From IMG/VR virus record IMGVR_UViG_3300037208_000030, positions 1 through 33,068 of that record: a DNA stretch of 33,068 bases, one strand, 5' to 3'. Source of the stretch: a virus. Under the pieces are notes generated by a model. That model was not told where the DNA came from. It saw only the letters and a program-made list of their open reading frames with translations, and searched no databases. The position numbers were made by a program, and so were the translations under genes. Of the stretch, positions 6,579 to 29,559 are shown one piece after another; positions within the stretch are counted from its first letter, which is position 1; the number at the start of each line of letters is the position of its first letter.

Positions 6579-9500
6579 ATGGCAACAGTAGAGCCGATTA
6601 TCGTCCACATCTTAGGTGACAGCGTTGGGTTAGATGCATCTCTCGCAAGTGCCGGTGTATCTATAAAAGCATTCGGCGCTGCAGCGGTAACGCCTTTCGC
6701 AACTATAGGGGCAGCTATAACCAGTGCAGGGGCATCTATAAAAGCATTCGGCGCCACAATGACCGCCGCTGGTGTCGGCATGTCGCTGATGGTTACAGCA
6801 CCTATCGTTGCAGTCGGCGCCGCTGCTTTACTTGCGGCCAATAATGTTCAAAAAGCGTATGCTATCATCATCGCAGGAACGGGCGCGACTGGTTCTAAGC
6901 TCGCGGGCCTCGAGACGCAGTTTGATAACCTTGCTTCAACAGTCCCAAATAGTTTCACTGACACGGCAACAGTCCTTACAACAGTCAATAACAAACTCTC
7001 TGAGGGCGCCTACGCTATCTCCGAGATTTCTAAGAACATCCTCGACGTTTCGAGAATGACTGGCGAAAGCGCATCTTCGCTCGCTTCTGAGTTTACGGCA
7101 GCTATACAGAGTTGGGGTGTTTCGGCAAAGGCGACCGAAGGCTTCATGAACCAGGTTTATACCGCAGCCCAAGCTGCCAGGGTTCCGGTTACTTCGATCC
7201 TCACCGACCTTACCACCTATAAGCCGGTTATTGAATCCGCTGGTTTCTCGCTTCAACAGATTATCCCAATAATCGGCGATATTGAAAGTAAAGGTTTGGA
7301 TGTCACGCGCACGATGCAGGGAATTGCCTATGCGTGGGCCAACCTTGGCAAGGGCATGGCTGCGGCCAAACCCGCTGCGTGGGTCGATGACGTAACCAAG
7401 TCAATGAAGGATGCTGGTATCCAGGGCAATACCACTGCCGACCAGCTTCAGGGTGTTTTCTACGGCATACAGCACGGCCTTATCTCTGTTGGCGATGCAG
7501 CAAACATATTTGGTTCCCGTTTTGCGGATAACGTTTTTAACGTGATTAAAGACGGCAACCTGACTGCAGCGCAGTTCATTGCGTTGTCTAACGGGATGTC
7601 AATTAGTCTTAATACCGTCGGCGCCAGCACCATCACATTCGCACAGTCTATTGATATAATGAAGAACGCCCTTGAGATCGCTTTGAACCCTCTCGGCGAG
7701 AAGTTGATCTCGGCATTCACTCAGCTGATGCCACTCATCAAAGACGTCATCGGCATAATTGGTGACTTAGCAAGTGCATTCAGTGACCTTCCCACGCCCG
7801 TCGCTGACGCAATTTTTGTAGTAGTCGGCCTCGTTGCTGCAATAGGTCCGGCGCTAGTAATCATTGGAGGGCTTATCTCAGCATTTGGATCTATCGTTAC
7901 TGCCGTCGGTGCGGTTGTCACAGCTCTTCCGCTCATCGTAGGCGTTATGGCTTTGCTTGCTCCGGTGATAATCGTCGCGACGGTAGCTATTGGTGCATTA
8001 GTCGCCATCATCGCGCCTATGGCCGCTGCATTTTATCTTGCTTATACAAGCTCTGCACAGTTTCGAGATACTCTTAGTGAGCTTGAGGGCACTCTTGGAA
8101 CCGTGGCTGGTGCTTTTACTACATTAGGAAGCCACATCTCCTCCGGACTGAGTTACATACTCAGTGGAAACTACAAAGCAGGATTTGCGGATTTTACTAG
8201 CGGCTTCACCGATATGTGGAATACGATAAGCAAGATCAACTGGGAGGGTCTTGGCGAGACTATTTCCACTCAGATCGTCGCAGGTGTAAGCAAACTGCCA
8301 GCGGATCTTAAAACGATATGGGATACGGTCGCGACGGATTTTACTACGTGGTACAACAGTGTTGATTGGGTTGGCGACGGCAAGAAGATATCAGCGGCGA
8401 TCGTCACAGGCATAACCACGCTGACAACGGACCTTAAGAAGATATGGACCACAGCGTCAGCAGACTTCACCACTTGGGTCAATGGCGTTAATTGGACTGC
8501 GGACGCCAAGAAGATACCTATAGCAATCATCGCAGGTCTGAATGATCTTCAAAAGGACTTAACACCTATCTGGAACACTATAGAGACAAGTTTTACGACT
8601 TGGGAAAATAGCGTTCCGTGGGGCGCACTTGCTACCCAAATCCCAAATGATATTTCTAACTCCATAAAACTGTCAATGGCCACGATTGGGCCTGTATGGG
8701 ACTATATTCAGATTAGTCTCATGAATTGGATTCAAGGTATCAACTGGACCGGCGTTGGAACCGCCCTTGGTTCCGGTCTTCGATATGCGATACAACTTGC
8801 ACTTAACTCGCTCGTTGGCGGTTTAAGCGATCTCATCCCAACTGCCCTAATCACTACTGGTCAGCCAAATCTCGTCGGCGTGGGTATAACTGCTGCTAAG
8901 AACTTCGTTAGCGGTTTTCAGAGCGGACTTGGCGATCTGTGGCAGCTCATAATGGATGGGATTCAGCCACTTGCAGGTAAGCTCGCTGATTATATGGAGC
9001 ACGATGTCGATTGGACAGGCATCGGAACCGCCATCGGCGAGATACTTGGGTCAATGATTGCGACAGTCGCGGGCGATCAAGCAGGCATTTACAGCGGTGG
9101 GAGTAGTGGGGGTCCTGGAACATCCACAGGGAACATTATCGGCCAACAGATAACATCCCCGAATCTCGGCACAGCATCATTTGGTCAGTCCGGCACCAGT
9201 AAACTCGCGCAAGCAGGGCAAGACGCTGGCGACGCCCTTGTTAACGGCTTCCAAAAAGGCATAACAGACGCGATGTCCCACATTGATTGGGGGACGTTTA
9301 TCCTAGATGCTATGGGTCTGGGCCAGTTCGCAACAGGCAACAAGACCCAGAACTCATCATCTAATACATCTAGCCAATCTTTTGACCCTAACAATCCGTT
9401 AAAGAATCCATTTGGTTCGTTGGGTGACTCAGCACTTAGCTCACTTGGTAACATCAAATGGCCCACCTCCAGCATATTAGGGAGTATAAGTGCGTTTGAT

Positions 9501-10958
9501 CCCGAAACGTGGAATCTGGGGGGCGCCCTTGGTAGTCTAGGGGGAATGGCAAATTTCGGAGGCAATCTCACCAATCCAATGGCGGGTGGAATATTCGGAA
9601 ATGGTTCGTTATTACCACAGAACCTACCAGGTGCAAGCGCCATTATGGGTGGCTTGGGTAGTATAGGAAACTTCTTTGGTGGCCTCAAGGCACCGGCGAT
9701 GCCGAATTTGAGCCCGCAGGGCGCCCTTGACTCCTTGGGCAACTTAGGTGGTGGCTACAGCATAAATAATCTTTTTGGTTTAAAGAAGCCTCGGCTCTAT
9801 AACACGACAGAGGGCGCTCAAAGCAGCGCTCAAAGCGTGCCCGGCATGATCAACCTGCCATCCAAAATAATGGGGGCGGCTGGTTCGGTTGACTGGGGCG
9901 CATTAACCAAAGGGGGCATCTTCGACCTCAATAATGGCCCGTTAGCTCCTCTCGCTAAAGCTGACTACGGAGCGGAATTTAGCAAACTTACCAAAGGTGG
10001 CATCTTCGATCTCGATCAAGGCCCACTAGCACCCCTTATGAAAACTAATTGGGGCGCAGTTCCAGGCCAAGTTACAAGCGCGGTCGGTTCAGCTGCAACT
10101 ACCGTTGTCGGTGGCGCTAAGTCTATATGGGACTTCATTACCGGCGCACCTAAAGAGATTTGGACGTGGATCACCGGCACCGCTAAGGAAGTCTGGACGT
10201 GGATCACGGGGACCGCACACGATATTTGGTCATATATCACTGGCGGAGCACATGACATTTGGAGTTATATCACTGGTGGAGCGCATGACATCTGGTCATA
10301 CATCACCGGCGGGGCGCATGATATCTGGTCATACATAACGGGCGGAGCTCATAGTGTCTGGACTTACATAACCGGCGGGGCGCATGATATCTGGTCATAT
10401 ATTACGGGGGGTGCTCACGACATTTGGAGTTACATCACGGGGGGTGCTCACGACATTTGGAGTTACATCACTGGTGGCGCTCATGACATCTGGTCGACTT
10501 ACATCACAGGCGGAGCGAAAACCCTTTGGGGGGACCTCATAACGGGTGGGAGTATTGACGTTCACTCGCTAATCACCGGAAGCATTACCATTGGCCCTGT
10601 GACTATTCCTGTGGCAACAGGCGGTGTTTTTGCTCCGAAGGTGCATGGTGTCGCTGCCGTCATTGCCGAAGCGGGAGAAGCTGAGATGGTAGTTCCTAAG
10701 CACCGATGGGGTGAAGACTGGGGCAGCCTCATTAATACATTGCCGCACTTTGGGTCAGGTGCCATTGTTGGATCGGGCGGTTCTAGTGGTTCATTCTCGT
10801 CCACACTTGTAGACACACTCATTAAAGCCTTATCGGGACTAACATCGGGTGCGCCGACATATCAGGTGAGCATCGTCAGTGATAACGAGAATATAAAGCG
10901 CGAGGTATTCGCAGCGATTCGCGAGCTTGAGCAATACCACCACTTAGCGGGGCAATAA
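6579..10958 (+). CDS. Tape measure protein
   Basis: 1459 residues, starting immediately after the chaperone stop (TAAATG). The N-terminal third is Ala-rich and helical (SIKAFGAAAVTPFATIGAAI, repeated in part near residue 47) and includes the DLTTYKPVIESAGFSLQQ-type region common in phage minor tail proteins. Residues 404-490 are strongly hydrophobic, with several membrane-like helices. Residues 548-734 have Trp-anchored units with a 42-residue period. Residues about 780-1180 are Gly/Ser/Asn-rich. Residues 1181-1326 are 11-residue units (ITGGAHDIWSY). The C terminus has HGVAAVIAEAGEAEMVVP, typical of tape measures. Its length would give a tail of roughly 200 nm by the usual 1.5 angstrom per residue rule. 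I saw no peptidase or lysozyme motif. Confidence 0.9.
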   Translation: MATVEPIIVHILGDSVGLDASLASAGVSIKAFGAAAVTPFATIGAAITSAGASIKAFGATMTAAGVGMSLMVTAPIVAVGAAALLAANNVQKAYAIIIAGTGATGSKLAGLETQFDNLASTVPNSFTDTATVLTTVNNKLSEGAYAISEISKNILDVSRMTGESASSLASEFTAAIQSWGVSAKATEGFMNQVYTAAQAARVPVTSILTDLTTYKPVIESAGFSLQQIIPIIGDIESKGLDVTRTMQGIAYAWANLGKGMAAAKPAAWVDDVTKSMKDAGIQGNTTADQLQGVFYGIQHGLISVGDAANIFGSRFADNVFNVIKDGNLTAAQFIALSNGMSISLNTVGASTITFAQSIDIMKNALEIALNPLGEKLISAFTQLMPLIKDVIGIIGDLASAFSDLPTPVADAIFVVVGLVAAIGPALVIIGGLISAFGSIVTAVGAVVTALPLIVGVMALLAPVIIVATVAIGALVAIIAPMAAAFYLAYTSSAQFRDTLSELEGTLGTVAGAFTTLGSHISSGLSYILSGNYKAGFADFTSGFTDMWNTISKINWEGLGETISTQIVAGVSKLPADLKTIWDTVATDFTTWYNSVDWVGDGKKISAAIVTGITTLTTDLKKIWTTASADFTTWVNGVNWTADAKKIPIAIIAGLNDLQKDLTPIWNTIETSFTTWENSVPWGALATQIPNDISNSIKLSMATIGPVWDYIQISLMNWIQGINWTGVGTALGSGLRYAIQLALNSLVGGLSDLIPTALITTGQPNLVGVGITAAKNFVSGFQSGLGDLWQLIMDGIQPLAGKLADYMEHDVDWTGIGTAIGEILGSMIATVAGDQAGIYSGGSSGGPGTSTGNIIGQQITSPNLGTASFGQSGTSKLAQAGQDAGDALVNGFQKGITDAMSHIDWGTFILDAMGLGQFATGNKTQNSSSNTSSQSFDPNNPLKNPFGSLGDSALSSLGNIKWPTSSILGSISAFDPETWNLGGALGSLGGMANFGGNLTNPMAGGIFGNGSLLPQNLPGASAIMGGLGSIGNFFGGLKAPAMPNLSPQGALDSLGNLGGGYSINNLFGLKKPRLYNTTEGAQSSAQSVPGMINLPSKIMGAAGSVDWGALTKGGIFDLNNGPLAPLAKADYGAEFSKLTKGGIFDLDQGPLAPLMKTNWGAVPGQVTSAVGSAATTVVGGAKSIWDFITGAPKEIWTWITGTAKEVWTWITGTAHDIWSYITGGAHDIWSYITGGAHDIWSYITGGAHDIWSYITGGAHSVWTYITGGAHDIWSYITGGAHDIWSYITGGAHDIWSYITGGAHDIWSTYITGGAKTLWGDLITGGSIDVHSLITGSITIGPVTIPVATGGVFAPKVHGVAAVIAEAGEAEMVVPKHRWGEDWGSLINTLPHFGSGAIVGSGGSSGSFSSTLVDTLIKALSGLTSGAPTYQVSIVSDNENIKREVFAAIRELEQYHHLAGQ
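8221..8780 (+). repeat. 42-residue Trp-anchored repeats in the tape measure
   Basis: About four units begin at INW, VDW, VNW and VPW and recur every 42 residues (126 bp). Each holds xxDLKxIWxTxxxxFTTWxNSV, placing Trp at two fixed internal positions. Two more degenerate forms (GINWTG, DVDWTG) follow. The register suggests alpha-helical segments stacked along the tail lumen. Confidence 0.75.
10121..10556 (+). repeat. About thirteen 33-bp/11-residue repeats in the tape measure
   Basis: Units of the form ITGGAHDIWSY repeat in frame, with variants APKEIWTW, TAKEVWTW, GAHSVWTY and GAKTLWGDL at the edges. The central copies are nearly identical at DNA level, for example around GGGGCGCATGATATCTGGTC. 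One copy carries an extra residue (IWSTY). Trp every 11 residues is a known pattern in tape measures, where it fits a hendecad helix. Confidence 0.9.
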
Positions 10959-10959
10959 A

Positions 10960-13900
10960 ATGGAAACTTGGATACTCAAAACTGCAGATGGGGAAAGTTA
11001 CAACTTACAAGTTGCGCCGACCGATGACCCAACTTGCTACGATGGCATTTATAACCTTATGGACGGAGTTACCGGCCATCACGGGATGCCTGTTACGCTC
11101 ACGAGCGACCAAGTTCCGAATATTGCAGGCGCAGAGTTAGCTCAGGTCCAATACGGCATCAGAGAGGTTTATCTTCCGCTTTATATCCGAGGCAATTCGC
11201 CAGCGGACTTTCATCATAACCTCTCAAAACTGCGTAGATCGCTCAATCCAAATAACGATGTACAGCTTTGGGTAACAAACGAAGAGGGACAAACCAGGGT
11301 GTTGTATTGCAGGTATTCAAAGGGCTTTGATACATTCGCCGATGACTCAAATAGGCAACTCTCCTGGGGCTTTGTGCCACTATATGTTGACGCTCTTGAT
11401 CCCTACTGGTATGATCCGCCAGGCTCAGAGATTGAAAAGAACTTCTCCAGCGATCCGTGGACCGCTAATTTCTTCACGCTCACTGAGCTAATGGCAGTCG
11501 CACAGGATGCAAGCGAAGGCGACACGCAGATTGTCGTTGATAATACCATCAACTGTGCGGTAGGTGCCAAACTTGAGATTCGCGCAGCCAAGTTTGTTCT
11601 AGGGACTGAGGGGGCTGAGCCCGAGTTCTCGGAAGAAGTGAAAGAATCGCTTAAAGCCACAGAATCCATCGTGCAAAACACTTCGATAAGCATCAATACC
11701 GACAATTCAAATCCGCAAGTCAACCAGATAGTTCACGTTTCTGGAACAGCCGTTTCAGTGAGCGGCACGAATGTTTCAAACTCTGTATGCGAGGTTAGTA
11801 TGACCACTTCCAACGGAGTGACGACTACGCATACCGTTATAACAAACGCGAACGGCAATTATAACTTCACATGGATTCCTGACATCGAGGACGTATTCTC
11901 GTTCATAGTGAAACTTCTAGCCGATGAAGTAAATTTCCACACATCCACTTCTCCAACGTTGCCGATCACAGTCGGAACTACCGCCGCAACGACACTAACA
12001 TTAGCGGTTTCTCCTAGTAATCCAGCGGTTAATAGTACATTCACGTTATCCGGCACGCTTAAAGCAAAAAATGTAGGAGTCATAGGGCAAAAGATTGCGC
12101 TACAAAGGTCTACACCGATGGGAATGTCGAATATGGGGAGTGCAACGACAGACAAAAATGGTGCTTATTCAATAACCGTCCGGGAACCGCATGTTGGATG
12201 GGTTTCTTATACAGCAAGTTACGCAGGAGATACTGTTACCACTATAACAAAACAAGACCCGTCGCTATCATCGTGGCTTACGTGGCTGTTCGAAAAGATA
12301 TTCGGTGCGCTCGAAGGCAACGTTAAATACGGATCGTTTGCGGCTTCTAAGGCCTCTCTTGTAGTGGCGATTGGAACGTTTACATATCCTATTAATTATA
12401 TGGCTGGCTTACCGCCGAGCATGATTAACGACGGTGAGATACAATACTTCGGTTACAACGGTTTTATGGGTATCATCTGCATTGCCGAGGCAACTAGCGA
12501 TAACTATTCAACTGAATATCACATTATCCACGATACCCACGCGGCCAACCCAAATTACGGGAATAATATGTGGGCCGCGATTGATATCTCCGTTGTCACG
12601 AACGACCACACAAAGCCGCTCTCTACGTGGCACGATTGGCTCGTCTCACTCTATAACGCCGGATGGCGCTATGTTATGGGCGGCAACTCAGGTGATAGGG
12701 TGGGTGATCCAGCATACCTTAACTCGCTTGGGCTCAAATATATCAATGATAATGCTACACCGTGGCCAGGGACGACGACAAACCCCGACACATCTGGCAC
12801 AGGCGTTTATCATAACAACTTTGATCTCTACCAATCAGCGTCGCTTCCCTATGTGCAAGCGTGGACTACGGCGGCGTATCTATCATCTCCAAGCGTCAAG
12901 AGCGGGATACTTGCGTATGTTCGGCCAGACGATTCAAAGGGCATTAACGAGATGCTTACTAACTCTTTGAATGGAACCTCACCGACGTATAAAGACGTCT
13001 TTGATTGGAGTTACATCAACTACGTAGGGATGACAAGTTTTGTCGTGTGGTTCCGACCTAAGTATAACGCAGTAACCGCGCGGGATAGTGAACCCGAGCA
13101 GATTAGTCTTTATAAGTCGCTCAATTTTGATACCATAATATCTGAGATTGCAGGATACTACCCCGGAACGCATCTCTTAGACGGGACTACCTATACGTGG
13201 ACGCAACCGACACATAAAGCGGTTAGTCTTACAATGAACTACACTACGAGTCCCGCAGGGACGTGTGAGTTTACAGGCACATTGACAGAACTGATTACCG
13301 GCGCAGCGCTCACGGGAGCAACCATCAGCCTGTGGGAAGACGTATCCGGCACGTGGACGCAACGGGCTACAACTACTACTAACAGCGCAGGGAACTATGA
13401 TATTCCGTTTACAAGCACCGTAGGCATTCACACATTTAGGGTCATGTACGCCGGAGATTCTACACATCTAGGATTCACCGCCCCGTCGGCATTCGGTGTT
13501 ACGCTAAACCTTTGCGTCGTTGATACCCTACTGGTTAAAGAGGTGAACGAAATTTCTTCCGTGGATAGCCCAACTGTTCTGACATTGGCTAATCCGCTTG
13601 CTAATAATTACACGGTTGCGGGTGAAGCGTATGTCACGGAAGTTGACACTAATGACACGTTTTTGACGCCTACCGGGGCCACGCGAGACACGGCGGGAAT
13701 TAATGATAACTGCAATATAGTGATCTTCTGGATGCGCGGTTGTCCCCCGTGCCTCACCGCAAAGGCGCAGCTTCACGCGCTGCAGGCAGAGTTTACCAAT
13801 CTGGCGCTGACATTCGTTGAGATTCAGGATCACGATCCGAGTTACGATGGAACCGAACTGAGCATTGGCATGGACGCAGCTAAGGTTCTGTATCCAGAAG

Positions 13901-14655
13901 CGTATGCGTTTCACTGTGCATGTGGGCCACCTGTGCCACCGCCGTATGGGGCGATTGACGCCCTGAAAGGCGGTATGCCTGCCACGATTGCGATCTATCG
14001 CGGTGGAATCTTTGTTAAAGCGTTCTGTGGCGTCCATACTACGGGAGTTGACCCTGTTTCAGATGATGTGCTCGAGGACACTTGCGGACCGCCGATGACG
14101 TGGCGCCTCGGCCAGAACTTCATCGGGGCTCGCGTGGTCCTGCAAAACAATGGAGAAGATAAAACATTTCCTGTGTGGACAATTACAGGGCCGGGGTGCG
14201 TTCCAACACTCACGAATGTTACAACTGGCGACGTCTTTCAGCTTAACCACGATCTAGTAGCTGGCGAAGCAGTCGTTATAGACGCGACTGAGCAAGCGCA
14301 TACCGTCGGTAGCACGCGGGCTGCGGACTTTATCGGAAGCGGCTATATGAAATCAGAAGTATGTCCCACCTGTCACGGAACCGGCGTTATCGCTGCATGC
14401 GCTACCTGCGGAGGCACCGAAGTATGCCCAACGTGCCACGGTTCGGGAAGTATAAGTGTATGGGTGCCAGCTTCGTCAGGAAGTACGACCGATGTGGGCG
14501 GGATGTATAACCTGCGCTTCGCAATGGACCCTGACGGGAATACGTTTTGGGGGTTCGTGCCGACAGCTAACGTTATCGAAGTTGAAATGGGCCTCGCTAC
14601 GTATGGACAAAGTATGATTAACGTGCAGTTGATACAGCGATACGAGGGAATATAG
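10960..14655 (+). CDS. Distal tail (Dit-like) protein with inserted Ig, TIM-barrel, thioredoxin and Zn-finger domains
   Basis: 1231 residues, against about 250-350 for ordinary Dit proteins. Residues 1-165 are the Dit N-terminal ring domain (PLYIRGNSPADFHHNLSKLR, SWGFVPLYVDALDPYWYDP). Residues 180-215 start a small beta module whose second half appears only at 853-900 (VLTLANPLANNYTVAGEAYV). In between lie two Ig-like domains (about 243-335, 343-423), a TIM-barrel-like domain (about 460-738) and a third Ig-like domain (752-840). Residues 910-1050 are thioredoxin-like with CPPC at 928-931. The Dit C-terminal domain (TLTNVTTGDVFQLNHDL, then NLRFAMDPDGNTFWGFVP to the end) is interrupted by three CxxC motifs at 1135-1159, two of them DnaJ-type CPTCHGxG. 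Position after the tape measure fixes its place at the tail tip. Boundaries are estimates. Confidence 0.85.
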   Translation: METWILKTADGESYNLQVAPTDDPTCYDGIYNLMDGVTGHHGMPVTLTSDQVPNIAGAELAQVQYGIREVYLPLYIRGNSPADFHHNLSKLRRSLNPNNDVQLWVTNEEGQTRVLYCRYSKGFDTFADDSNRQLSWGFVPLYVDALDPYWYDPPGSEIEKNFSSDPWTANFFTLTELMAVAQDASEGDTQIVVDNTINCAVGAKLEIRAAKFVLGTEGAEPEFSEEVKESLKATESIVQNTSISINTDNSNPQVNQIVHVSGTAVSVSGTNVSNSVCEVSMTTSNGVTTTHTVITNANGNYNFTWIPDIEDVFSFIVKLLADEVNFHTSTSPTLPITVGTTAATTLTLAVSPSNPAVNSTFTLSGTLKAKNVGVIGQKIALQRSTPMGMSNMGSATTDKNGAYSITVREPHVGWVSYTASYAGDTVTTITKQDPSLSSWLTWLFEKIFGALEGNVKYGSFAASKASLVVAIGTFTYPINYMAGLPPSMINDGEIQYFGYNGFMGIICIAEATSDNYSTEYHIIHDTHAANPNYGNNMWAAIDISVVTNDHTKPLSTWHDWLVSLYNAGWRYVMGGNSGDRVGDPAYLNSLGLKYINDNATPWPGTTTNPDTSGTGVYHNNFDLYQSASLPYVQAWTTAAYLSSPSVKSGILAYVRPDDSKGINEMLTNSLNGTSPTYKDVFDWSYINYVGMTSFVVWFRPKYNAVTARDSEPEQISLYKSLNFDTIISEIAGYYPGTHLLDGTTYTWTQPTHKAVSLTMNYTTSPAGTCEFTGTLTELITGAALTGATISLWEDVSGTWTQRATTTTNSAGNYDIPFTSTVGIHTFRVMYAGDSTHLGFTAPSAFGVTLNLCVVDTLLVKEVNEISSVDSPTVLTLANPLANNYTVAGEAYVTEVDTNDTFLTPTGATRDTAGINDNCNIVIFWMRGCPPCLTAKAQLHALQAEFTNLALTFVEIQDHDPSYDGTELSIGMDAAKVLYPEAYAFHCACGPPVPPPYGAIDALKGGMPATIAIYRGGIFVKAFCGVHTTGVDPVSDDVLEDTCGPPMTWRLGQNFIGARVVLQNNGEDKTFPVWTITGPGCVPTLTNVTTGDVFQLNHDLVAGEAVVIDATEQAHTVGSTRAADFIGSGYMKSEVCPTCHGTGVIAACATCGGTEVCPTCHGSGSISVWVPASSGSTTDVGGMYNLRFAMDPDGNTFWGFVPTANVIEVEMGLATYGQSMINVQLIQRYEGI

Positions 14656-16205
14656 TGCCAGGAAGTCCTCTAGTCGAAGCGGATAATGTCATAGTCTTAC
14701 GTGACAAGGACTTGGAAGACGTAGACGAGATCACGCGGTTCACGCAATGGCTACATACGCTCAAGCTGAATGACGTCTCGAGTTGGCAGTTGGACATGCG
14801 GACTCAGGATTTTAACAGCTACGATATCGACGAGAACAGCGGCGTTAAGTTCTATCGAGATGGCGTCTTGCTGATCGACGGTCCAATTTCATCGCAGGGC
14901 ATTAAGCAAACATTATCGGCAGGTGCGGAAACAACAACAATTATCGGCGGTTGTGACAACGCTTACCTTTCTGCGAGAATCTGTTACCCCGTCGTGACAG
15001 GTCCGATCTTCGATGTTGTGGCACAGAAATGGAAGTTTGGGGTTCTACGTTCGTGCGTGGGCATCTCAACGAGCGTCACTAAAGGCTGCCCTGCAGGTGA
15101 AGAATACGATGTACCGATCGTGGTTGCAGACGCCGAAGGCTTCATGGAGGGCAATACCGTTCAACTTGTCGGTCCGGACGGAACGGTGTATTCAAACTGG
15201 AATCAACTTAACAGTTCTTACGCAAGCGCTTCGATCGCCCTTTCAGGTGTAGACTTCAGCACCAATACCCTGACACTAGCGGTCCCGCAACAGTATCCAG
15301 CGATCCTTACGCCTGACATAGCGACGACTGGCGGCATGGTATACCAGACGAGTGGCGGCATCGTTGATGATCCAGCTTACACAGGCTACGACATAAGAAC
15401 CGGCCCTGCTGATAAAGTAGCTAAGGAGCTGGTTTTCTTTAATGCAGGCATAGGAGCGTGCTCTGACCAGTTCGGCACCCGAGCAATCCCGTATCTAGCG
15501 GTTGCTGCGCCGACAGCAGTAGGCGGCGTCATTACCTCGAGTGCTCGCGGCGAGAATCTTTTGACGCAGGTTCAGGACGTATGCGCGAGCGGAAGTGTCA
15601 ACTTCCAGACCACGCAGGTCGGCAATGAGCTGGTTTTTGACACGTTCATCGGCAACAACCTGGCACAAAACAACGATCTTATCTTCAGCGTCGAAAGTGG
15701 CAACCTGAAAGATTATACGCTCGCTAGTGGCCATCCTACTGCGAATATGATATGGGGCTGCGGGCCTGATACAGGTCCCGATAAGACAATGCTACCCAGT
15801 GGCGACATTGCTTCAATCGGCAGTTTCGGTCGATGGGAGTCGTGGATAAGTGCGGCTACGTCGAAAGCAACGGATTCCTCGGCGATTATCAATGCCAGCA
15901 TGGTTCAAACGAACAACCTTGCACTCACACAATCGATCATAAACACATCTATGACGCTGACGATCCAAGAGACGGATCAGGTCAGGTATCCTCGAGACTT
16001 CCAGTTAGGGGATAAAGTGATTATTGTCGTAGGGAGCCGACAGGTAACTGAGATTATAACAGCTATCCAATACTCCGTTCCGACTTCCACGAGCGGCGGT
16101 GGTTCAGGGACAGCACTTTCAGCAGCTTTAGCCAAGCAACCCACTCAGGCGATGAAAACGCAGAAAGTGACTACAAAACAGATTCAACAGATGTTAATGG
16201 CGTAA
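14655..16205 (+). CDS. Tail-tip protein, siphovirus Gp37-like family
   Basis: 516 residues starting at GTG that overlaps the preceding TAG. The N-terminal half (VIVLRDKDLEDVDEITRFTQ, VSSWQLDMRTQDFNSYDI, GVKFYRDGVLLIDGPISSQG) and the later NLKDYTLASGHPTANMIWGC, GRWESWI and DFQLGDKVIIVV segments match the Gp37-like tail family known from ReqiPepy6-type siphoviruses. There it takes the place of the Tal/gp27-like hub. Residues about 138-221 hold another copy of the small beta module (VPIVVADAEGFMEGNTVQLV, NTLTLAVPQQYPA). The C terminus is low complexity, with SGGGSGT and a Gln/Lys-rich end. Likely forms the central tail-tip hub next to Dit. Confidence 0.75.
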   Translation: MPGSPLVEADNVIVLRDKDLEDVDEITRFTQWLHTLKLNDVSSWQLDMRTQDFNSYDIDENSGVKFYRDGVLLIDGPISSQGIKQTLSAGAETTTIIGGCDNAYLSARICYPVVTGPIFDVVAQKWKFGVLRSCVGISTSVTKGCPAGEEYDVPIVVADAEGFMEGNTVQLVGPDGTVYSNWNQLNSSYASASIALSGVDFSTNTLTLAVPQQYPAILTPDIATTGGMVYQTSGGIVDDPAYTGYDIRTGPADKVAKELVFFNAGIGACSDQFGTRAIPYLAVAAPTAVGGVITSSARGENLLTQVQDVCASGSVNFQTTQVGNELVFDTFIGNNLAQNNDLIFSVESGNLKDYTLASGHPTANMIWGCGPDTGPDKTMLPSGDIASIGSFGRWESWISAATSKATDSSAIINASMVQTNNLALTQSIINTSMTLTIQETDQVRYPRDFQLGDKVIIVVGSRQVTEIITAIQYSVPTSTSGGGSGTALSAALAKQPTQAMKTQKVTTKQIQQMLMA

Positions 16206-16207
16206 TT

Positions 16208-16684
16208 ATGTTAAACGCAAGCGACGCGGATTATAAAAATGCAGTGGCTCAGAACCTCATCAACCACAGTGCAAGTATTAGTGATATTAATAGCACGCTG
16301 AACGACCAGGTACAGGTTAATGGGGACAGTGGCGTCCTTGAAACTCAGGCAGATCACGAAGAGCGTATAACCGTTCTTGAAGCGAAGGGGTTCAATCCTG
16401 CTGCTTGCACAGATGGCACTTCTCATTGGATTTTCGTTGTGGGAAGTGACCAAGCGTGCTGGTACAGATCGTATGCAGCCGGCATCTGGAGCGCATGGAA
16501 CGGTAGCCTTGGCGGCCAGTTCAGTTCAGGACTGACTGCGTATTGTTACAATTCCGGCGCGAGCGGTGCTAAGACCTCGATTTGGGTGTATGGGCAGGGA
16601 ATGTCGGGCGAACTCTGGCAGAGAATTTGGAGCGGCACCGCTTGGAGTGCAGCGTGGGTGGACTTGGGGGGAAATCTAGACTAA
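16208..16684 (+). CDS. Short tail fibre with two tectonin-like propeller blades
   Basis: 158 residues. Residues 1-58 form a short coiled coil or helix bundle (NLINHSASISDINSTLNDQVQ, ADHEERITVLEAKG), typical of a trimerising fibre base. Residues 60-158 contain two tectonin/PLL-like blades: HWIFVVGSDQACWYRSY with WNGSLGG, and SIWVYGQGMSGELWQRIW with WVDLGG. Such blades bind glycans in lectins. A trimer would bring together six blades. There is no clear ribosome binding site, and the gap to the previous stop is 2 bases, so coupling is likely. The second blade is nearly identical in DNA to one in the gene at 17392. Confidence 0.7.
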   Translation: MLNASDADYKNAVAQNLINHSASISDINSTLNDQVQVNGDSGVLETQADHEERITVLEAKGFNPAACTDGTSHWIFVVGSDQACWYRSYAAGIWSAWNGSLGGQFSSGLTAYCYNSGASGAKTSIWVYGQGMSGELWQRIWSGTAWSAAWVDLGGNLD

Positions 16685-17377
16685 ATGGCGAAACGGTTTG
16701 CGGCGCATTTCGGCAATCTTGATAACCTCAGTCAATTAGCCTCAATGGGGTTCAACGAAGCAGGACTTGTGTATCCGTGGGACGGCACCGGCGTTGCTGC
16801 CGGAACTGCGGCTGCAATACATCGTGCCGGAATCCCAACTGCAGTATTCAGTACTCTTAATGATGTGTCGACAGCCGTTACGCAACCTAACGCAGCGGGT
16901 GCACCGTATGCGGGATATTTCAGTGCATTGGCAAGTTCTGGATGGGACTGCATTGCAGGTGAAGGGTGCGGGGGCTCTGTGGTGGGCACAGCGGCGAACT
17001 ATTGTACATACATTAACTATGGACTATTGGACATTACTTCAGCCTTATTTGGTGAACAAGTGAATATGTATGCGGCTCCTTGGAACCACCCTGTAGGGGG
17101 ACATTGGGACTATATACAGACCTACGATGGACAGAATGGTTTAACTGTGCTCTCTACATTGGATTGCCTTTCAGCAGCGGTGACAGCGGGTGCGCGACAT
17201 CTAGGCATCTTGATCCAGTATCCAAATCCGCTAGGATTTGCAGCTAATTATATGAACATTATTGACCAGGGCGGCTGTGATACTATATGTTTTTGGGGTG
17301 ATTCTAATACCCTATCTTCTAGCTGTGTAGACTTGGCGCAAGAGTTGATTCAACATTACGGCGGCGCTTCAAAATAG
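16685..17377 (+). CDS. TIM-barrel-like hydrolase-type tail protein
   Basis: 230 residues starting directly after the previous TAA. The order of strands and helices suggests a compact TIM-barrel-like domain: FGNLDNLSQLASMGFNEAGLV, IHRAGIPTAVFSTLND, ALASSGWDCIAGEGCGG, YCTYINYGLLDI, LGILIQYPNPLG, CDTICFWGDS. The segment SSGWDCIAGEG...YINY aligns with AAGWPTLSSEGG...YINY in the minus-strand gene at 28318 and AGWRYVMGGNSG...YIND in the Dit-like protein, so the three are paralogues. Glutamate and aspartate in these segments could be catalytic, but I cannot name a glycosidase family. Probably a virion-associated hydrolase or glycan-binding protein. Confidence 0.6.
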   Translation: MAKRFAAHFGNLDNLSQLASMGFNEAGLVYPWDGTGVAAGTAAAIHRAGIPTAVFSTLNDVSTAVTQPNAAGAPYAGYFSALASSGWDCIAGEGCGGSVVGTAANYCTYINYGLLDITSALFGEQVNMYAAPWNHPVGGHWDYIQTYDGQNGLTVLSTLDCLSAAVTAGARHLGILIQYPNPLGFAANYMNIIDQGGCDTICFWGDSNTLSSSCVDLAQELIQHYGGASK

Positions 17378-17391
17378 ATAAAGAGAATACA

Positions 17392-19410
17392 ATGTCACAA
17401 TATATCCATTACACTTTTGCTAATAACTCTTCCGGCATCACAAATTTTGGCACCGGCGGTAGTACTTATAACGGATCTGCAGTACGAAATCAATACGCCC
17501 TAAATTCAGTTGGGCATCCGGTATGGGGTCCACTAGATGCAAATACTGATGGAATACGAGTTTATGGTGGCCTTAGTAATCCGTACCAACACACCTGGCA
17601 AGTTGGATTGAATGTTAATCAGTGGTGGCCGATGGCAGGTATAACTGATTACCAAAATGGAAATGATGGAAAATTATTTGCCGCCGGTGGAAACAATTTG
17701 TACGCATATTTCCATGGTGTAGGTAGCGGTTCCGGCTATGCAAGTACCTATAATTTTACTGTCGAAGGTACATTAAGCGCAAGTTGTCAGTTATGGGTGG
17801 GCACCGGGAATTCTGCGCCTGTTAATATGGGGGCTCCCTCCGTTGGAAGTGAGGGTAGGACATATTATGTATGGCCAAATTGGGACGTGCAGCTTCATAC
17901 AAATTATTACCTTCAGCTTGTTATAAACGGTAGCGGGATGGGCCTTGGTTCAGCCTACTCTATAGGTAACTGTATTGATACTGGTTCTCCTTGCGCTGAT
18001 GACGCTGTGACTGGATTCCCATGTGGATGTTATTTTTATTCTTGGAGAGAAGATAATACAGCGTTAAACCTTTCTGGTGGTGGTAATTGGAAAGATGACC
18101 TTCCGTTGTGGGCGGGAGGGGCAGTACCTACAGCATCAGCATCCGGTTCTACCGCCGCCAAAGCTGCAGTGCCACAGGTTCAATGTCCCTGTAAACACTT
18201 ATGGATCGGCTTCACCGGCGTCTCAGGCAGTAGCACCTCGCAGCATATTGAGTTTAAGGTTCAAATCTCTGGTATTGCTGGATGGGTAGATAATTCTGAA
18301 CATTGGATTGCCGATAGACCTTACACCGGACAGCTTGAGATATGGACGCGCAACCCCGCAGGGAAGAGTTGGTCATTGGGGAAGATATGGCCAGAGAAAG
18401 ATGGAAGTTTCTCCTTTTTTGTGGGCAGTGATACAGCCGAGAAAAGAGCGTATAATGTTTGTTTCGTGAACCCCGGATCAGCCGGGCCTGCCCCTCCATC
18501 GGAAGCCATTACAGCCGCCAGCGGTGGCCCTACACCACCTAATGCCGCGCCCATAATTGCACCAGGGACACACGCAGCAGCAGTGCTGAACGACGGTTTA
18601 CATACAATAGATGTTTTTGGTTGTAACGGAACGCAGCCATCAGCACTCACTCACAACACATTCGACGGGACGTCGTGGTCTGGCTGGATACTTCCGGGTG
18701 GGGACGGAACCTTCAACTATTCCCCTTGCGCAGTTTCCCGGACGCCCGAGTATGTCTCTGTGTATGTGGTGGGAACAAACGGTGCCGTGTACGAAACCAC
18801 ATATGAGGGTAGCAACTATGTGGCGTGGACCAATCTCGGCGGTCAGACGGCGCATGGTCCTGCATGTTGTTCAATGGCCCCCTTAAGGAATGATATATTT
18901 GTTACCGGCACTAACGGCGCCGTGTTCCAAAAATACTACAACGATGGCGTCTGGTCACAGTGGCTTACTCTCGGCGGCAAAGCAAATTCCGGACCAGGAG
19001 CGTGCAGTTATGCAGCTAACCAGCTTGCAGTATTTGTGCAAGGCACCGATGGCTATACATGGTGGAGATATTGGAGCGGGACCGCTTGGAGTGCGTGGCA
19101 TTCGCTTGGAGGTCCGAAAGTAGAATCAACGAACCACCCTGCCGCGTGTGGGTATAATGGCAAGATTTATCTGTTTATCACGACTAGCAACAATAAGGTA
19201 GCATACAGAGAATACAACGGAGCTTTTTGGAACTCGTGGGTAACTGACAACACAACTATAGTCAGTTCTCCGGAGGTACAAATTACTGCAGATGGTTCCA
19301 CGGTTCATTATTTTGCCCGTGGCAACGACCGAGCGATATGGCATAGAAGCTTTGGCACCGCTTCTGAAAAATGGTCTGATTGGGAATCGCTTGGCGGGAA
19401 CTTCCCGTAA
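17392..19410 (+). CDS. Tail fibre with six-bladed tectonin-like beta-propeller
   Basis: 672 residues. The N-terminal 230 or so look like a beta-sandwich carbohydrate-binding region (YTFANNSSGITNFGTGGSTY, YNFTVEGTLSAS, NYYLQLVINGSG), with a Cys-rich segment (DTGSPCADDAVTGFPCGCYF) at about 199-218. A second beta domain follows (LWIGFTGVSGSSTSQHIEF). A Pro/Ala linker near 365-395 leads to six blades (about 395-672), each ending in a W-x-LGG-like turn (WILPGG, WTNLGG, WLTLGG, WHSLGG, a degenerate fifth, WESLGG). Six blades would close one propeller in a single chain. The likely role is host recognition at the tail tip. The start has AAAGAG at a usable distance. Confidence 0.75.
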   Translation: MSQYIHYTFANNSSGITNFGTGGSTYNGSAVRNQYALNSVGHPVWGPLDANTDGIRVYGGLSNPYQHTWQVGLNVNQWWPMAGITDYQNGNDGKLFAAGGNNLYAYFHGVGSGSGYASTYNFTVEGTLSASCQLWVGTGNSAPVNMGAPSVGSEGRTYYVWPNWDVQLHTNYYLQLVINGSGMGLGSAYSIGNCIDTGSPCADDAVTGFPCGCYFYSWREDNTALNLSGGGNWKDDLPLWAGGAVPTASASGSTAAKAAVPQVQCPCKHLWIGFTGVSGSSTSQHIEFKVQISGIAGWVDNSEHWIADRPYTGQLEIWTRNPAGKSWSLGKIWPEKDGSFSFFVGSDTAEKRAYNVCFVNPGSAGPAPPSEAITAASGGPTPPNAAPIIAPGTHAAAVLNDGLHTIDVFGCNGTQPSALTHNTFDGTSWSGWILPGGDGTFNYSPCAVSRTPEYVSVYVVGTNGAVYETTYEGSNYVAWTNLGGQTAHGPACCSMAPLRNDIFVTGTNGAVFQKYYNDGVWSQWLTLGGKANSGPGACSYAANQLAVFVQGTDGYTWWRYWSGTAWSAWHSLGGPKVESTNHPAACGYNGKIYLFITTSNNKVAYREYNGAFWNSWVTDNTTIVSSPEVQITADGSTVHYFARGNDRAIWHRSFGTASEKWSDWESLGGNFP

Positions 19411-19428: not shown

Positions 19429-19947
19429 ATGGCACAAGCTTGTACACCAACGATAATCACTTTGTCAGGATGTCCGCATTGCGCTAACCTTGAAACGATG
19501 CTCAATAATGCGGACATTAAATACAACAATACTGAATCGGGCAGTTGCGCGTGTTACCCCTGCGCGGTCTTATGCGACGGATCGCAAGTCTCGAGCTGCG
19601 GCGGTGGCGCAGAGAACGATGTCTTTGCAGCGATTCAGAAATCGGTAGCATCCACCACTAAAGCGGCCACGCCAACCGCGCCAGCTGCGACACCAAAAGC
19701 GACGCCTGCTGCGAGCGCCTCTGCCGCCGCTTCTCCGGCTTGGAAGACTACCAAGTGGGCGAACGAATTAAGTGTCGATTGGGGCGCCAAAAATCCATTG
19801 CCGACAATCGCACAGACGCCTGCCGGCTATGAACCTCCGGATGTGTCACTGACGGCGGTATTGCCGTTGCCTCCGACTCAGGCTGACGGCTTGACAATCG
19901 CGCTTCGAGATCATAAAAAAATGCCTATCGCTAGAAAAGTTGCTTAA
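19429..19947 (+). CDS. Glutaredoxin-like protein with disordered linker
   Basis: 172 residues with AAAGGTG before the ATG. Residues 1-75 form a glutaredoxin-like domain: TIITLSGCPHCANLETMLNN puts CPHC at 15-18 at the start of helix 1. A second Cys group (CACYPC) and CDG and SCGGG follow. Residues 85-120 are an Ala/Thr/Pro linker (TPTAPAATPKATPAAS). The C-terminal 55 residues (KWANELSVDWG, then PPDVSLTAVLPLPPTQ) form a short anchoring segment. It lies between a fibre and a tailspike gene, so it is probably a virion or assembly component, not a metabolic enzyme. Together with the thioredoxin-like insertion in the Dit-like protein it suggests thiol chemistry at the tail. Confidence 0.7.
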   Translation: MAQACTPTIITLSGCPHCANLETMLNNADIKYNNTESGSCACYPCAVLCDGSQVSSCGGGAENDVFAAIQKSVASTTKAATPTAPAATPKATPAASASAAASPAWKTTKWANELSVDWGAKNPLPTIAQTPAGYEPPDVSLTAVLPLPPTQADGLTIALRDHKKMPIARKVA

Positions 19948-19962: not shown

Positions 19963-21522
19963 ATGACTGAATCAAGCTATCCATTTTCGACACAACCAGG
20001 AAATACGATGACTGAGAACCAGTGGGCTCAGTTATTCAGGTACCTGATGGGAACCGGCGTTATGTCGGTGAGCTTCAATGACTCGCTTAACCAACTCGAA
20101 GTGACCGGCGATCCGGCACAGCCGTTGACAATCAATATGGACACCGGAGCCGCCTATATTCAAGGCCACGGCTACATCAATGATACGATCAAATCGTTCG
20201 GACCGCCGGACATCGCCCCTAATACTTCTGCTGGAACCAGAGCCGATCTGTTAGTCCTTGAATGTAAATGGGGGTTGAACGGCGGTATTACCTCGAAGAT
20301 TCTACCAGGGACTAACGGAGCCGCGTATCCGTCTGGCAGCAAACTCTCCGGTCCAATGCCACAGTCGCTCACGCAGACGTATGGTGTGCGATGGCAGATT
20401 CCTATCTGTCAGATCAATGTGACGCAAGGGCTGTCGATGGTCACGAACGTCAATCTTATTGACCAGCGCAAGTTCGTGGCAACCGGTGGCGCTCAGGCTT
20501 ATGCGGTAATAGTCGCTATGCCAAACGCGAGTCCCAAGATGCGACAAAATGCGGACTTCCAAATTCCAACGACTGCCGGCTACGCTGACGCAGAGGAGAT
20601 CATAAATGAAGCGTTCGATGCGCTGCCTCTCTGCGGCGGAACGGTAATGCTCAGCGAAGGTGACTGCGTTATAGATAGTAGCATCACCCCTCCTAGTGGC
20701 ACGATTTTTGCAGGTTGCGGCGACCAGACAACGATCACGATGGGGATCGGTGCCGACGACGTTCCTATGGTCGATATAGGGGCATCGACGGATATCGTGG
20801 TGCATGATATGTTACTCAATGGCGGTGGTGCAGGTTACACTTTAGGAACAGGCAATACTAACGTGTGGCCGTCGCCTACTGGACAACACGGAATTCACGC
20901 AACGGGGGGTAATGTGCTCGTTTACGATATGACCATAACCGGAGCCAAAGGCGGGGGGATTTTCTTTGAGGAGCCCGCGGGGTATAACTCAAACCAGATT
21001 ATTCGGAATAGTCTTATCGAGTTGTGTTACGCCTGTGGCATTGCCTTTAGCGGTAATTATGGGTTTATAAAAGATAACCAGATTAGCACCGTAGGGGGTG
21101 AAGGACTTTATGTCAGCGCTCCGGCAGGATCGCACTGCGACGCTAACAAAGTGGCAGGAAATATAATTACCGGCTCGGCGGGGGACGGCTTGAAATTGGT
21201 CGGCAATACGGCCGGATGTAATATGCTGTACAATATGCTCACGAATAACGAGATTGCCCAATGTGGTCTTCAGGCGAATAGCCTGTATTCAGGCATCTCG
21301 TTATGGGGCGCTTCCGGAGCTACCCATGACCACACCACGTTAATAGGAAATGTCGTATGGACTGCAGCAGCGCCCAACACATTGTATGGGTTGTTGATTA
21401 ACTCCTCAACTGTCACCAGTACTCGTGCAATTGCCAATGACTTCCTTGATTCAGGCACAGGAGCTAACATTCAGCTTGAGGGGGGCGCAACATATTCAGG
21501 AGTCGGACTTAACCTGATCTAA
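19963..21522 (+). CDS. Tailspike with baseplate-type N terminus and right-handed beta-helix
   Basis: 519 residues after AAAGGAG. Residues 1-175 resemble baseplate-attachment domains of tail proteins (PFSTQPGNTMTENQWAQLFR, NMDTGAAYIQGHGYIND, ADLLVLECKW, NVNLIDQRKF). Residues 190-519 read as a parallel beta-helix of the pectate-lyase-like superfamily: CGGTVMLSEGDCVIDSSITP, VHDMLLNGGG, VLVYDMTITGAKGGGIFFEE, IIRNSLIELCYACGIAFSG, FIKDNQISTVGGEGLYV, NKVAGNIITGSAGDGLKLVG. Such spikes bind and often cleave surface polysaccharides. Catalytic residues cannot be assigned by eye. Confidence 0.8.
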   Translation: MTESSYPFSTQPGNTMTENQWAQLFRYLMGTGVMSVSFNDSLNQLEVTGDPAQPLTINMDTGAAYIQGHGYINDTIKSFGPPDIAPNTSAGTRADLLVLECKWGLNGGITSKILPGTNGAAYPSGSKLSGPMPQSLTQTYGVRWQIPICQINVTQGLSMVTNVNLIDQRKFVATGGAQAYAVIVAMPNASPKMRQNADFQIPTTAGYADAEEIINEAFDALPLCGGTVMLSEGDCVIDSSITPPSGTIFAGCGDQTTITMGIGADDVPMVDIGASTDIVVHDMLLNGGGAGYTLGTGNTNVWPSPTGQHGIHATGGNVLVYDMTITGAKGGGIFFEEPAGYNSNQIIRNSLIELCYACGIAFSGNYGFIKDNQISTVGGEGLYVSAPAGSHCDANKVAGNIITGSAGDGLKLVGNTAGCNMLYNMLTNNEIAQCGLQANSLYSGISLWGASGATHDHTTLIGNVVWTAAAPNTLYGLLINSSTVTSTRAIANDFLDSGTGANIQLEGGATYSGVGLNLI

Positions 21523-24014: not shown

Positions 24015-25226
24015 TTAGTTCAAGTTCAATGCTACTGCGGCCCACGCGGTTGTCCACACACCGCTGACATACTTCTTTTCGTATATCGTGTGGTTTGTGC
24101 CTTCAACATCAACAGTCAACACGCCGTTGACGTATGCTGCGCTTGGGACTGAGCCTACAAGAGCTGTGCCACCAAGGGATACCCACGCATTCGCATTGCG
24201 CTTCCACCAGATAGCCCCGTTGCTTCCAACTGCAAAGACGTCAACATTGGTGCCGTCTGTGCATGATGCTGGCGCACCGAGAACTACCCCGCCGAGGGAC
24301 TTCCATGCAGCTGCGTGCTGTTGCCACACTGCTTTGTCTGAACCCGTTACAAACCGATCACCACTTGCCATAAGCATTGGCGATGAATTTGCAGTTACGT
24401 GCGTCACCGGAGGAGGAGTCGGATTGATCTGACTCTCCGTAGCAATTACCCAACTGTCACTTGCATAGTTCTGGATATACGGTCTAGGGATCAAGCCGAA
24501 TCCCCCACTGAACTTGCCGTATCCTTTGCCCCAACCTGTCCCCCACGAATTTAGGGTGATGTAATAGTCGCTGGCGGTGAATCCAGTGACGCCGCAGAGT
24601 GCATTGCAGTGACCACCGATTGACGCCCCTGACGGCATCTCAATGATTCCGTCGCTGCCTACGTCTTCGTATTGTTGGTAGACTGGCATTCCGTAAACCA
24701 CCGGAAGGCCTGTCACACAGAGGCAGTTGTCTATGTTCGCAATCATCTGCGTGGTGCTCGAGCCATCAAGCAAATAGTAGCTCACGGTCTCAGATTTCAC
24801 CGCATCCGCGACCGCTTTCGCTGGTGGAGTGTCATCAAACTGGCTTATATTGTAAGCCCAATCAGTTTCAGGTGCCACGCCGTCCTGAACAGTCGCGTGG
24901 ATACCATCTCTGATATTACACCCATTGTCGCCAGGGAAGTCACCGCCTATGATCCTCGCATCACGATAGACAAGCAGCCTGCAGCCTAACACGGGTGCTA
25001 ACTTTGCCTTCATCTGACACGCTTCAAATCCTGACGTGGTTCCGTGAGCAACGCACGCACCTAATTGGCCTTGATTCTTGACTGTGCTGACCAAGTTAGT
25101 TAGGTCTGTAGGCTGTAACGCTTCAGCCATCATTAGTCTCACGTGATCTTCGTATCTATAATCACGGTGATCTTTTAATTGGGGCTTCCACCCCAGGCCG
25201 TGACCTTTCTTAGTTTTAGTTATCAT
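24015..25226 (-). CDS. C1A (papain-like) cysteine peptidase with tectonin-like blades
   Basis: 403 residues with GGAGG upstream of ATG. Residues 1-265 are a papain-family peptidase with all catalytic positions: Q52 and C58 in NQGQLGACVAHG, H206 in GGHCNALCGV, N226 in LNSWGTGWG. The GWKPQLKDHRDYRYED start is typical of prokaryotic C1A enzymes lacking a long propeptide, and there is no clear signal peptide. A Pro-rich linker (NPTPPPVTHV) leads to three tectonin-like blades (273-403, WKSLGG, WVSLGG, WTTAW). I infer an endolysin or envelope-degrading enzyme acting on a protein envelope such as an S-layer or sheath. The start overlaps the stop of the upstream gene at 25223. Confidence 0.85.
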   Translation of the reverse strand: MITKTKKGHGLGWKPQLKDHRDYRYEDHVRLMMAEALQPTDLTNLVSTVKNQGQLGACVAHGTTSGFEACQMKAKLAPVLGCRLLVYRDARIIGGDFPGDNGCNIRDGIHATVQDGVAPETDWAYNISQFDDTPPAKAVADAVKSETVSYYLLDGSSTTQMIANIDNCLCVTGLPVVYGMPVYQQYEDVGSDGIIEMPSGASIGGHCNALCGVTGFTASDYYITLNSWGTGWGKGYGKFSGGFGLIPRPYIQNYASDSWVIATESQINPTPPPVTHVTANSSPMLMASGDRFVTGSDKAVWQQHAAAWKSLGGVVLGAPASCTDGTNVDVFAVGSNGAIWWKRNANAWVSLGGTALVGSVPSAAYVNGVLTVDVEGTNHTIYEKKYVSGVWTTAWAAVALNLN

Positions 25227-28317: not shown

Positions 28318-29559
28318 TCACCCCATTACGGTTGCGTCCCTCTTCCAATTACTCCACACAGCATTCACCATTGACTTGACCCATACATTGCCGTCGCTCC
28401 CGATAACATAGACGTTTAGGCTGTTGTCGTTCACTGCAATGATCCCTAATGGAGTATTTGCAGCTACAACGCCGCCAAGGTCTTTCCAGTCGAGCCATTG
28501 AGTGCCGTTCCATTCCTTCAGGTAACAGCCACCGTTTGAACCGCGTGCAACGACGTCTATGATCTTGCCGGCCCGCGTGATGCAAGCAGGTGCCGACGTA
28601 AGAACGCCGCCTAGCGACTGCCAGTTAGCCGCGCCTATCGCTGGATAGTTGTGCCACAGTGTGCTATCGGTCCCTTTAACAAACTCGTCGATGCGACCAG
28701 GAACCATAGAACAGCTCACTGGAACCGATGCAAACATTTTCTTTGTTACCGGAGGGGGTGGCGCAGGTCCAATGCCGTTAGGTGGGTGGTTCTTCTGCAA
28801 GTTAGCGACTATTGAATCGAAGCCGCAGGCCTGATTCTGCGCTCTGCTTGACGCTGTTCCACCCCAAACGTCGAACCGCGTTACTGAGCATCCTAATGCT
28901 ATGAGCGAATCAATTATTGACTCGTAGCTAGGTTGCGCTCCGTTGATGCTGTTCTGAAGGATATCGTTGTCGCCTTTGAATTTCTTGTTCGGCGCATTTG
29001 CGTAATTCGGCGCGTCTTTCGAGAAGTAGCATTTTGAATGTTCCGCTGCGTCACGCCAAGCACCGGCTAGAACGCCGTTCGCTTTGCCTTTAGTAGCGTT
29101 TGCGCCCTGCGTGATGTAACCAACCTCGGAAGGATAGTAACACTCCCAGAGATTCATCACGGTTCCAACATCGGAATAGATGTTCTGCCACAAGCCACAC
29201 TGGTCGCAGTTGTAGTTGATGTAGCCGAGTCCTAGCCCCTTAATGAAGCTCGGATCACCGGCTCTGCCACCTTCTGAGCTGAGTGTCGGCCAGCCTGCCG
29301 CCTTGCAGGATTGCAGGAAGCTCGTAAAGTTGCCAATAGGCGATTGAATCTGACCGCCTGCCCAGATATCCATCTCGATATCGAGCACCGGCTTGACTCC
29401 AAGACCCTTGAGATACGCGAGCTGACTCGCGTAATTGTTACCTGCCCCGCCGGTTGAAACCAACTCGACGGTATTTATGTGCCAGTCCTTAATGTATTGC
29501 GGGACTTCCCCGATGCTTCCTGCCGTTACTGAGACACTATAGTCTAAACTGACTCCCAT
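28318..29559 (-). CDS. TIM-barrel-like hydrolase with three tectonin-like blades
   Basis: 413 residues with GGAGAGTGATCCA before ATG. Residues 1-270 suggest a TIM-barrel fold: VSLDYSVSVT, WHINTVELVST, LGVKPVLDIEMDIW, KAAGWPTLSSEGGRAGDPSF, LGYINYNCDQCGLWQ, then SVTRFDVWGG. Acidic residues at strand ends (DIEMD, SEGG, FDVW) are candidate catalytic groups, as in many glycosidases. Residues 275-290 are a Pro-rich linker (NGIGPAPPPPVTKK). Residues 290-413 are three tectonin-like blades (WQSLGG, WKDLGG, WSNW). The barrel is paralogous to domains in the Dit-like protein and the gene at 16685. No signal peptide. I infer an envelope glycan hydrolase or a second lysis enzyme. Confidence 0.7.
   Translation of the reverse strand: MGVSLDYSVSVTAGSIGEVPQYIKDWHINTVELVSTGGAGNNYASQLAYLKGLGVKPVLDIEMDIWAGGQIQSPIGNFTSFLQSCKAAGWPTLSSEGGRAGDPSFIKGLGLGYINYNCDQCGLWQNIYSDVGTVMNLWECYYPSEVGYITQGANATKGKANGVLAGAWRDAAEHSKCYFSKDAPNYANAPNKKFKGDNDILQNSINGAQPSYESIIDSLIALGCSVTRFDVWGGTASSRAQNQACGFDSIVANLQKNHPPNGIGPAPPPPVTKKMFASVPVSCSMVPGRIDEFVKGTDSTLWHNYPAIGAANWQSLGGVLTSAPACITRAGKIIDVVARGSNGGCYLKEWNGTQWLDWKDLGGVVAANTPLGIIAVNDNSLNVYVIGSDGNVWVKSMVNAVWSNWKRDATVMG

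Follow-up and report, generated by a model that had tools for sequence, protein, structure and literature searches.

Here we describe a distal tail (Dit) protein encoded in the window, by which we mean the whole 33,068-nucleotide stretch analysed (virus record IMGVR_UViG_3300037208_000030, positions 1 to 33,068). The gene occupies positions 10960-14655 on the plus strand as a single open reading frame (ORF) of 1231 amino acids (aa), with exact coordinates. Immediately 5′ lies the gene for a tape-measure protein (6579-10958, plus strand; PHROG 1272, E 2.6e-46) and immediately 3′ that for a Gp37-like baseplate hub protein of the Tal type (14655-16205, plus strand; PF14594, E 4.7e-24); the Dit ORF starts one base past the end of the former (10958), and its own end overlaps the start of the latter (14655). 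The order tape measure, Dit and hub is repeated in three related contigs (L034, L042, and L046), and ordinary Dits of 306-332 aa are encoded in the same order in several actinophages and Streptomyces prophage-plasmids. Along the 1231-residue chain we distinguish a belt domain, a split beta module that encloses an arm of immunoglobulin (Ig)-like and alpha/beta domains, a thioredoxin-like domain, and a galectin-type domain interrupted by a zinc-finger-like stretch. As an architecture, we regard this product with high confidence as a Dit enlarged into an adhesion device, based on Pfam and PHROG matches and on alignment to relatives.

The initial annotation had proposed that the two halves of a normal Dit stand at the ends of the chain, and both were recovered there. 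The N-terminal belt domain (residues 1-172; 10960-11475) is matched by PF05709 at residues 48-112 (E 2.7e-4, slightly under the curated cut-off), by the minor tail and Dit families PHROG 106 and 33 (E 1e-24 and 2e-13, respectively), and by the Dit of Streptomyces phage Success (29% identity). The C-terminal, galectin-type domain is matched by PF22768 at residues 1065-1122 (E 1.2e-3, again slightly under the curated cut-off, which is exceeded in the orthologue L010 at 26.6 vs. 25 bits), by PHROG 5577 (E 4e-11), by our own profile (65-75 bits), and by actinophage Dits. Using tblastn, similarity to isolate phages of Streptomyces, Propionibacterium, Arthrobacter, and Thermobifida was found to be confined to the belt or the C-terminal part, and in none of them was the barrel, the thioredoxin-like domain, or the zinc finger matched at the sequence level; Streptomyces and Nonomuraea records of a plasmid collection likewise matched in the belt or C-terminal part only. 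The material between the two halves does not form one unrelated domain.

Nine distinct forms of this Dit were compared, namely those of the window (L001), L002, L010, L013, L016, L034, L042, L046, and L089, all located in contigs of uncultured viruses (L011 and L012 carry copies identical to L010, L014 and L015 to L013, and L019 to L034, and L017 is one residue off L016). Belt, beta module, thioredoxin-like domain, and galectin-type domain with its zinc-finger-like insert form a core present in 9/9 forms, and the long insert is present in all except L034. The Dit of L034 is 579 aa long, with both Dit halves, an intact beta module, the thioredoxin-like domain, and the zinc finger, and without the ~640-residue insert of Ig, Ig, barrel, and Ig. 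Following the belt, its beta module reads through as LTADAVATSFVLYVDSVEYFVAGQSVEIISG...CVIDSVDLTANTITLKGYLRDDFLVADGAYVQVVDD, and the two parts of this sequence align with residues 179-213 (11494-11598) and 857-899 (13528-13656) of the window protein. A split module had been noticed in the initial annotation with its halves at 184-205 and about 870-890, and the split is upheld here with these new boundaries. When scored with a profile built from nine intact beta modules only, the halves of the window module reached 8.9 and 31.9 bits singly and 42.8 bits once joined, as compared to maxima of 11.8 bits for 200 joins to other segments of the insert and 19.8 bits for 200 shuffles. The segment controls are uninformative for L013, L042, and L046, whose inserts hold genuine extra copies of the module. 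Judged from sequence, comparison with L034 establishes that the arm is nested inside a split beta module.

The beta module is not confined to this position. A module of the same type is also inserted within the third Ig-like domain in L013, L042, and L046, and in L013 it is duplicated ahead of the thioredoxin-like domain; the module thus appears to act both as a guest and as a host of insertions. L034, L046, and L089 lie at the unresolved base of a tree of the core, so that L034 may have lost the arm or may never have had it. Additional evidence on how such proteins are assembled comes from L013 and L016, which are 99.6% identical across 7.4 kb from nucleotide 511 of the coding sequence (the end of the belt) onward, whereas the belt before that point is only about 50% identical and the sequence upstream differs as well. 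The junction is found at about nucleotide 511 in L017 as in L016, and L017 comes from a separate assembly. Similarly, the window and L002 share 82% identity in the thioredoxin-like domain vs. 60% in the belt. This sharp border and these unequal identities show that parts of the protein move as modules and that the belt border has seen a recent exchange. All members are metagenome contigs, none coming from an isolate or a genome assembly, and one might ask whether unrelated genes were joined in one contig during assembly. However, the nested order recurs at 40-70% identity in many different metagenomes in an open frame without stops, and synonymous change, where measurable, is far above non-synonymous change. 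An artefact of this kind is therefore extremely improbable.

The arm follows the order proposed in the initial annotation, i.e., Ig, Ig, alpha/beta domain, and Ig, with the thioredoxin-like domain after it. Ig-like domain 1 (about residues 241-338; 11680-11973) is supported by Ig-type Foldseek matches and Ig-like domain 2 (about residues 343-423; 11986-12228) by PF16640 (Big_3_5) at residues 349-426, both being modelled by AlphaFold2 with a predicted local distance difference test (pLDDT) value of about 70-88. Ig-like domain 3 (about residues 752-830; 13213-13449) is matched by PF13620 at residues 772-833 (E 3.5e-8; pLDDT about 55-80). Between the second and third lies an alpha/beta domain (about residues 463-738; 12346-13173) that may form a barrel and had been labelled TIM-barrel-like. 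Structural confirmation of that label was not obtained, the domain being modelled at a pLDDT of about 25-50 with its fold not resolved, and its profiles matched nothing above chance in PDB, Pfam, PHROGs, or NCBIfam. The best PDB match, the designed protein Top7, was taken as chance, and a Foldseek search with the model of residues 172-912 gave Ig-type matches only.

The alpha/beta domain nevertheless has relatives. In the window it is homologous to the ORF at 28318-29559 (minus strand; E 3e-10), where it is joined to a PLL-lectin-like propeller (PDB 5mxe, E 9e-36), and more distantly related to a stand-alone family member at 16685-17377 (plus strand; hhalign probability 85, E 6e-6). Searches of 11 contigs recovered the stand-alone copy in 11/11 and the Dit copy in all except L034, and most of the larger contigs proved to have three copies altogether. 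The alpha/beta domain is a recurrent phage domain. Proteins of the 28318-29559 type (window, L102, L077, and L101) show domain swapping and are encoded away from the tail genes; in L102 (G005:C1:26557-27369), the propeller is replaced by an apparent Ig-like domain. PLL-lectin-like propeller blades together with a CPCKHLWIGF-type domain also occur in additional proteins of the tail locus, encoded in the window at 17392-19410 and 16208-16684, in common with L034, L042, and L046.

These relatives bear on whether the arm is catalytic, i.e., whether the Dit ring shows six envelope-degrading enzymes, each a TIM-barrel glycoside hydrolase formed by the alpha/beta domain. The order of strands and helices in the stand-alone family, read by eye, resembles a (beta/alpha)8 pattern, and in most members the fourth strand ends in a conserved GEG (or GES). 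Moreover, the Dit copies hold a set of invariant polar residues (D542, N576, R580, D583, K701, N703, R708, and D709), and homologues are linked to PLL-lectin-like propellers. However, the GEG glutamate is replaced by a neutral residue in the Dit copies, the E/Q position of strand 6 is variable (Q in the window and L002), no glycoside hydrolase family was matched, and the PDB matches are at chance level. Because the acidic residue of most stand-alone copies is missing from the Dit copies, a display of six enzymes is unproven and we consider it unlikely, if still a serious candidate. For the same reason, binding is at least as likely a function of the arm as catalysis. The arm probably grips the host surface.

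The thioredoxin-like domain that follows the split module (residues 913-1043; 13696-14088) had likewise been anticipated, and both profile and structure searches point to it. A seven-sequence profile matched thioredoxins (best E 7.7e-5), TlpA, and StoA in PDB (6ali, 1jfu, and 3erw). Foldseek searches with the AlphaFold2 model of the L034 Dit, in which the first half of this domain has a pLDDT of about 70-78, returned PDB thioredoxins at E 7e-4 with a TM value of about 0.5 to the target. The same searches returned the Douge baseplate and the Bxb1 tail tip from PDB, adding to the evidence for the belt domain, and actinophage minor tail proteins and phage thioredoxins from the viral library BFVD; the tail-tip proteins of Bxb1 (9d93, 671 aa) and Sheen (659 aa) resemble the L034 Dit in this respect. 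An invariant CPPC (residues 928-931) opens the first long helix (284-299 in the L034 model), and the cis-Pro position is taken by an invariant Met-Pro (residues 1006-1007), as assigned from sequence rather than geometry. Across eight Dits, 11/21 cysteines are invariant, namely C928, C931, C988, C1023, C1042, and six in the zinc finger. The domain thus shares with thioredoxin, TlpA, and StoA the central CxxC, the cis-Pro, and the order of strands and helices. It differs from them in that CPPC follows Arg-Gly or Pro-Gly, the classical buried Asp is replaced (VIFW), three extra cysteines are invariant, and the domain sits within a tail protein. We found no Dit carrying a thioredoxin domain in the literature.

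A second protein with a dithiol motif is encoded in the tail locus. The 172-aa product of 19429-19947 (plus strand) contains a CPHC and weakly matches PF00462 (E 0.096), so that we call it glutaredoxin-like only tentatively. Homologues were found in 10/11 related contigs, and the remaining contig ends within the tail region. In L034, the glutaredoxin-like part forms the C-terminus of an 885-aa tail-fibre-like protein with an alpha/beta domain and a propeller, a fusion that links redox-like and tail-fibre functions.

When compared to ordinary Dits, the C-terminal domain contains about 60 extra residues with three CxxC pairs, which separate its first part (residues 1044-1119; 14089-14316) from its second (residues 1180-1231; 14497-14652). 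The zinc-finger-like stretch itself (CPTCHGTG, CATCGG, and CPTCHGSG; residues 1135-1159; 14362-14436) weakly matches PF00684 (DnaJ_CXXCXGXG). Its six cysteines are invariant and the stretch is absent from ordinary Dits. An ordinary-Dit profile scored 65.0 bits with the unaltered sequence and 74.7 bits after in silico deletion of residues 1120-1179, a gain of about 10 bits on joining the two parts that exceeded all shuffled tails (mean 65.3, maximum 70.4), and the corresponding deletion in L034 raised the score from 56.2 to 63.5 bits, in agreement with the interruption of this domain by a zinc finger that had been suggested at the outset. The stretch resembles the DnaJ central zinc finger (PF00684) and anti-TRAP in its CxxCxGxG-type motifs, but it has three CxxC pairs rather than the four repeats and two zinc sites of DnaJ, and it interrupts a Dit domain. 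A scan based on this zinc finger yielded one further full member, L089; DnaJ-type zinc fingers that it detected in other proteins, mostly apparently portal-like, were dismissed as unrelated. Portal-like proteins of unrelated phages (L091, L092, L098, and L100) carry a DnaJ-type CPTCxGT...CxDCxGxG motif.

Alternatively, the thioredoxin-like domain and the zinc finger may serve as structural spacers that lack a redox role, place the galectin-type domain, and bind baseplate neighbours. Their presence in the core of all relatives, including the armless one, and the missing buried Asp would fit such a role, and a Rossmann-like insertion in the Dit of phage Corndog has been reported to protrude from the ring protein (PMC13252515). 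On the other hand, CPPC and Met-Pro are strictly invariant while identity in the rest of the thioredoxin-like domain, which comes in two types, drops to about 43%; the domain has been exchanged between phages, and a glutaredoxin-like gene is retained in the tail locus. We therefore view the spacer role as plausible but doubtful. At the opposite extreme, the tail tip may be redox-active as a whole, with the obligatory CPPC domain and the glutaredoxin-like protein exchanging disulfides at adsorption and thereby triggering the tip or opening disulfide-bonded proteins of the host surface. To our knowledge, there is no example of a thiol-exchange entry step in tailed phages, and we consider this scenario quite improbable.

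Previous studies have described "evolved Dits" in which loops of the galectin domain hold carbohydrate-binding modules, as in Lactobacillus phage J-1 and the lactococcal 936 and P335 phages (PMC7291167; PMC9692632). The window protein resembles them as a belt and galectin-type Dit enlarged by insertions thought to aid adhesion. In contrast to them, its arm lies in a beta module between the belt and galectin-type domains, a thioredoxin-like domain and a zinc finger are added, no carbohydrate-binding module family was matched, and the zinc finger is the sole interruption of the galectin-type domain. In mycobacteriophage Corndog, the Dit gp58 has been solved in the baseplate with a Rossmann-like insertion between its two Dit domains (PMC13252515). 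An alpha/beta domain between Dit domains is common to both proteins, so that an added domain of this class in a Dit has a precedent (PMC13252515), where the initial annotation had thought a barrel nested with redox domains unusual. Corndog gp58 differs in having that single insertion; a thioredoxin, a zinc finger, and a nested arm are not reported there. The window Dit is hence a variant of the evolved Dit theme and not a new kind.

Taken together, we favour, with a probability of roughly 0.68, the reading that this protein serves an uncultured siphovirus as its Dit, the ring core having been built out into a device for adhesion, with the following roles for arm and dithiol. Six subunits would form a ring beneath the tail tube, a sixfold display that is taken only from the hexameric Dit rings of known phages. 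The arms would point outward and bind, and possibly process, host surface glycan, a role that the evolved Dits described so far assign to carbohydrate-binding modules. A working dithiol would be kept in the thioredoxin-like domain and would form or open disulfides, either in the tail tip, which contains cysteines, or at the surface of the host; the glutaredoxin-like protein may be its partner, and the zinc finger would stabilise a loop of the galectin-type domain. These functions of arm and dithiol are read from sequence features. Several observations weigh against them: the alpha/beta domain matched no known enzyme or lectin family, its Dit copies are neutral at the GEG position, and redox activity might differ or be absent because the buried Asp is replaced. 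Furthermore, AlphaFold2 models of both the armless L034 Dit (nine sequences) and window residues 172-912 (six sequences) had a mean pLDDT of only about 47, the latter with the barrel not resolved.

The virus is an uncultured siphovirus of a little-known bacterial or archaeal virus group. Similarity of the portal and Gp37 proteins gives a loose pointer to phages that infect Gram-positive Actinobacteria; two matches to Methanoculleus viruses were obtained as well, and no host is assigned on this basis. No prophage or host was found in two scans of genome contigs, no tRNA genes were found, and nothing matched an anti-phage defence function. Other genes of this group have features of their own. 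The C-terminal part of the tape measure holds near-identical 11-residue repeats (GGAHDIWSYIT) in series, as in L002. The product of 19963-21522 combines a right-handed beta-helix (PF13229) with a virion-structural N-terminus and is likely a fibre or spike, and 24015-25226 (minus strand) encodes a papain-family cysteine protease (PF00112, E 9e-9) that is unusual in phage and possibly related to lysis or the host surface. The contig of L001, designated L048, encodes a large terminase subunit of 851 aa (8629-11184, minus strand) with an intein-like sequence after the Walker-A region, an annotated intein being among its tblastn matches, and the product of 17594-18382 (plus strand) resembles, by eye only, a Ku-type DNA-end-binding protein.

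Dit decorations, mostly carbohydrate-binding modules, now include two parts of the conserved ring core, the thioredoxin-like domain and zinc finger, along with an arm set within another inserted module. The armless relative and the recent exchange at the belt border make this family a readable example of how insertions placed inside other insertions give rise to a tail-tip protein. Should the dithiol be functional, one would have to ask whether some tailed phages exchange disulfides as they enter the host.

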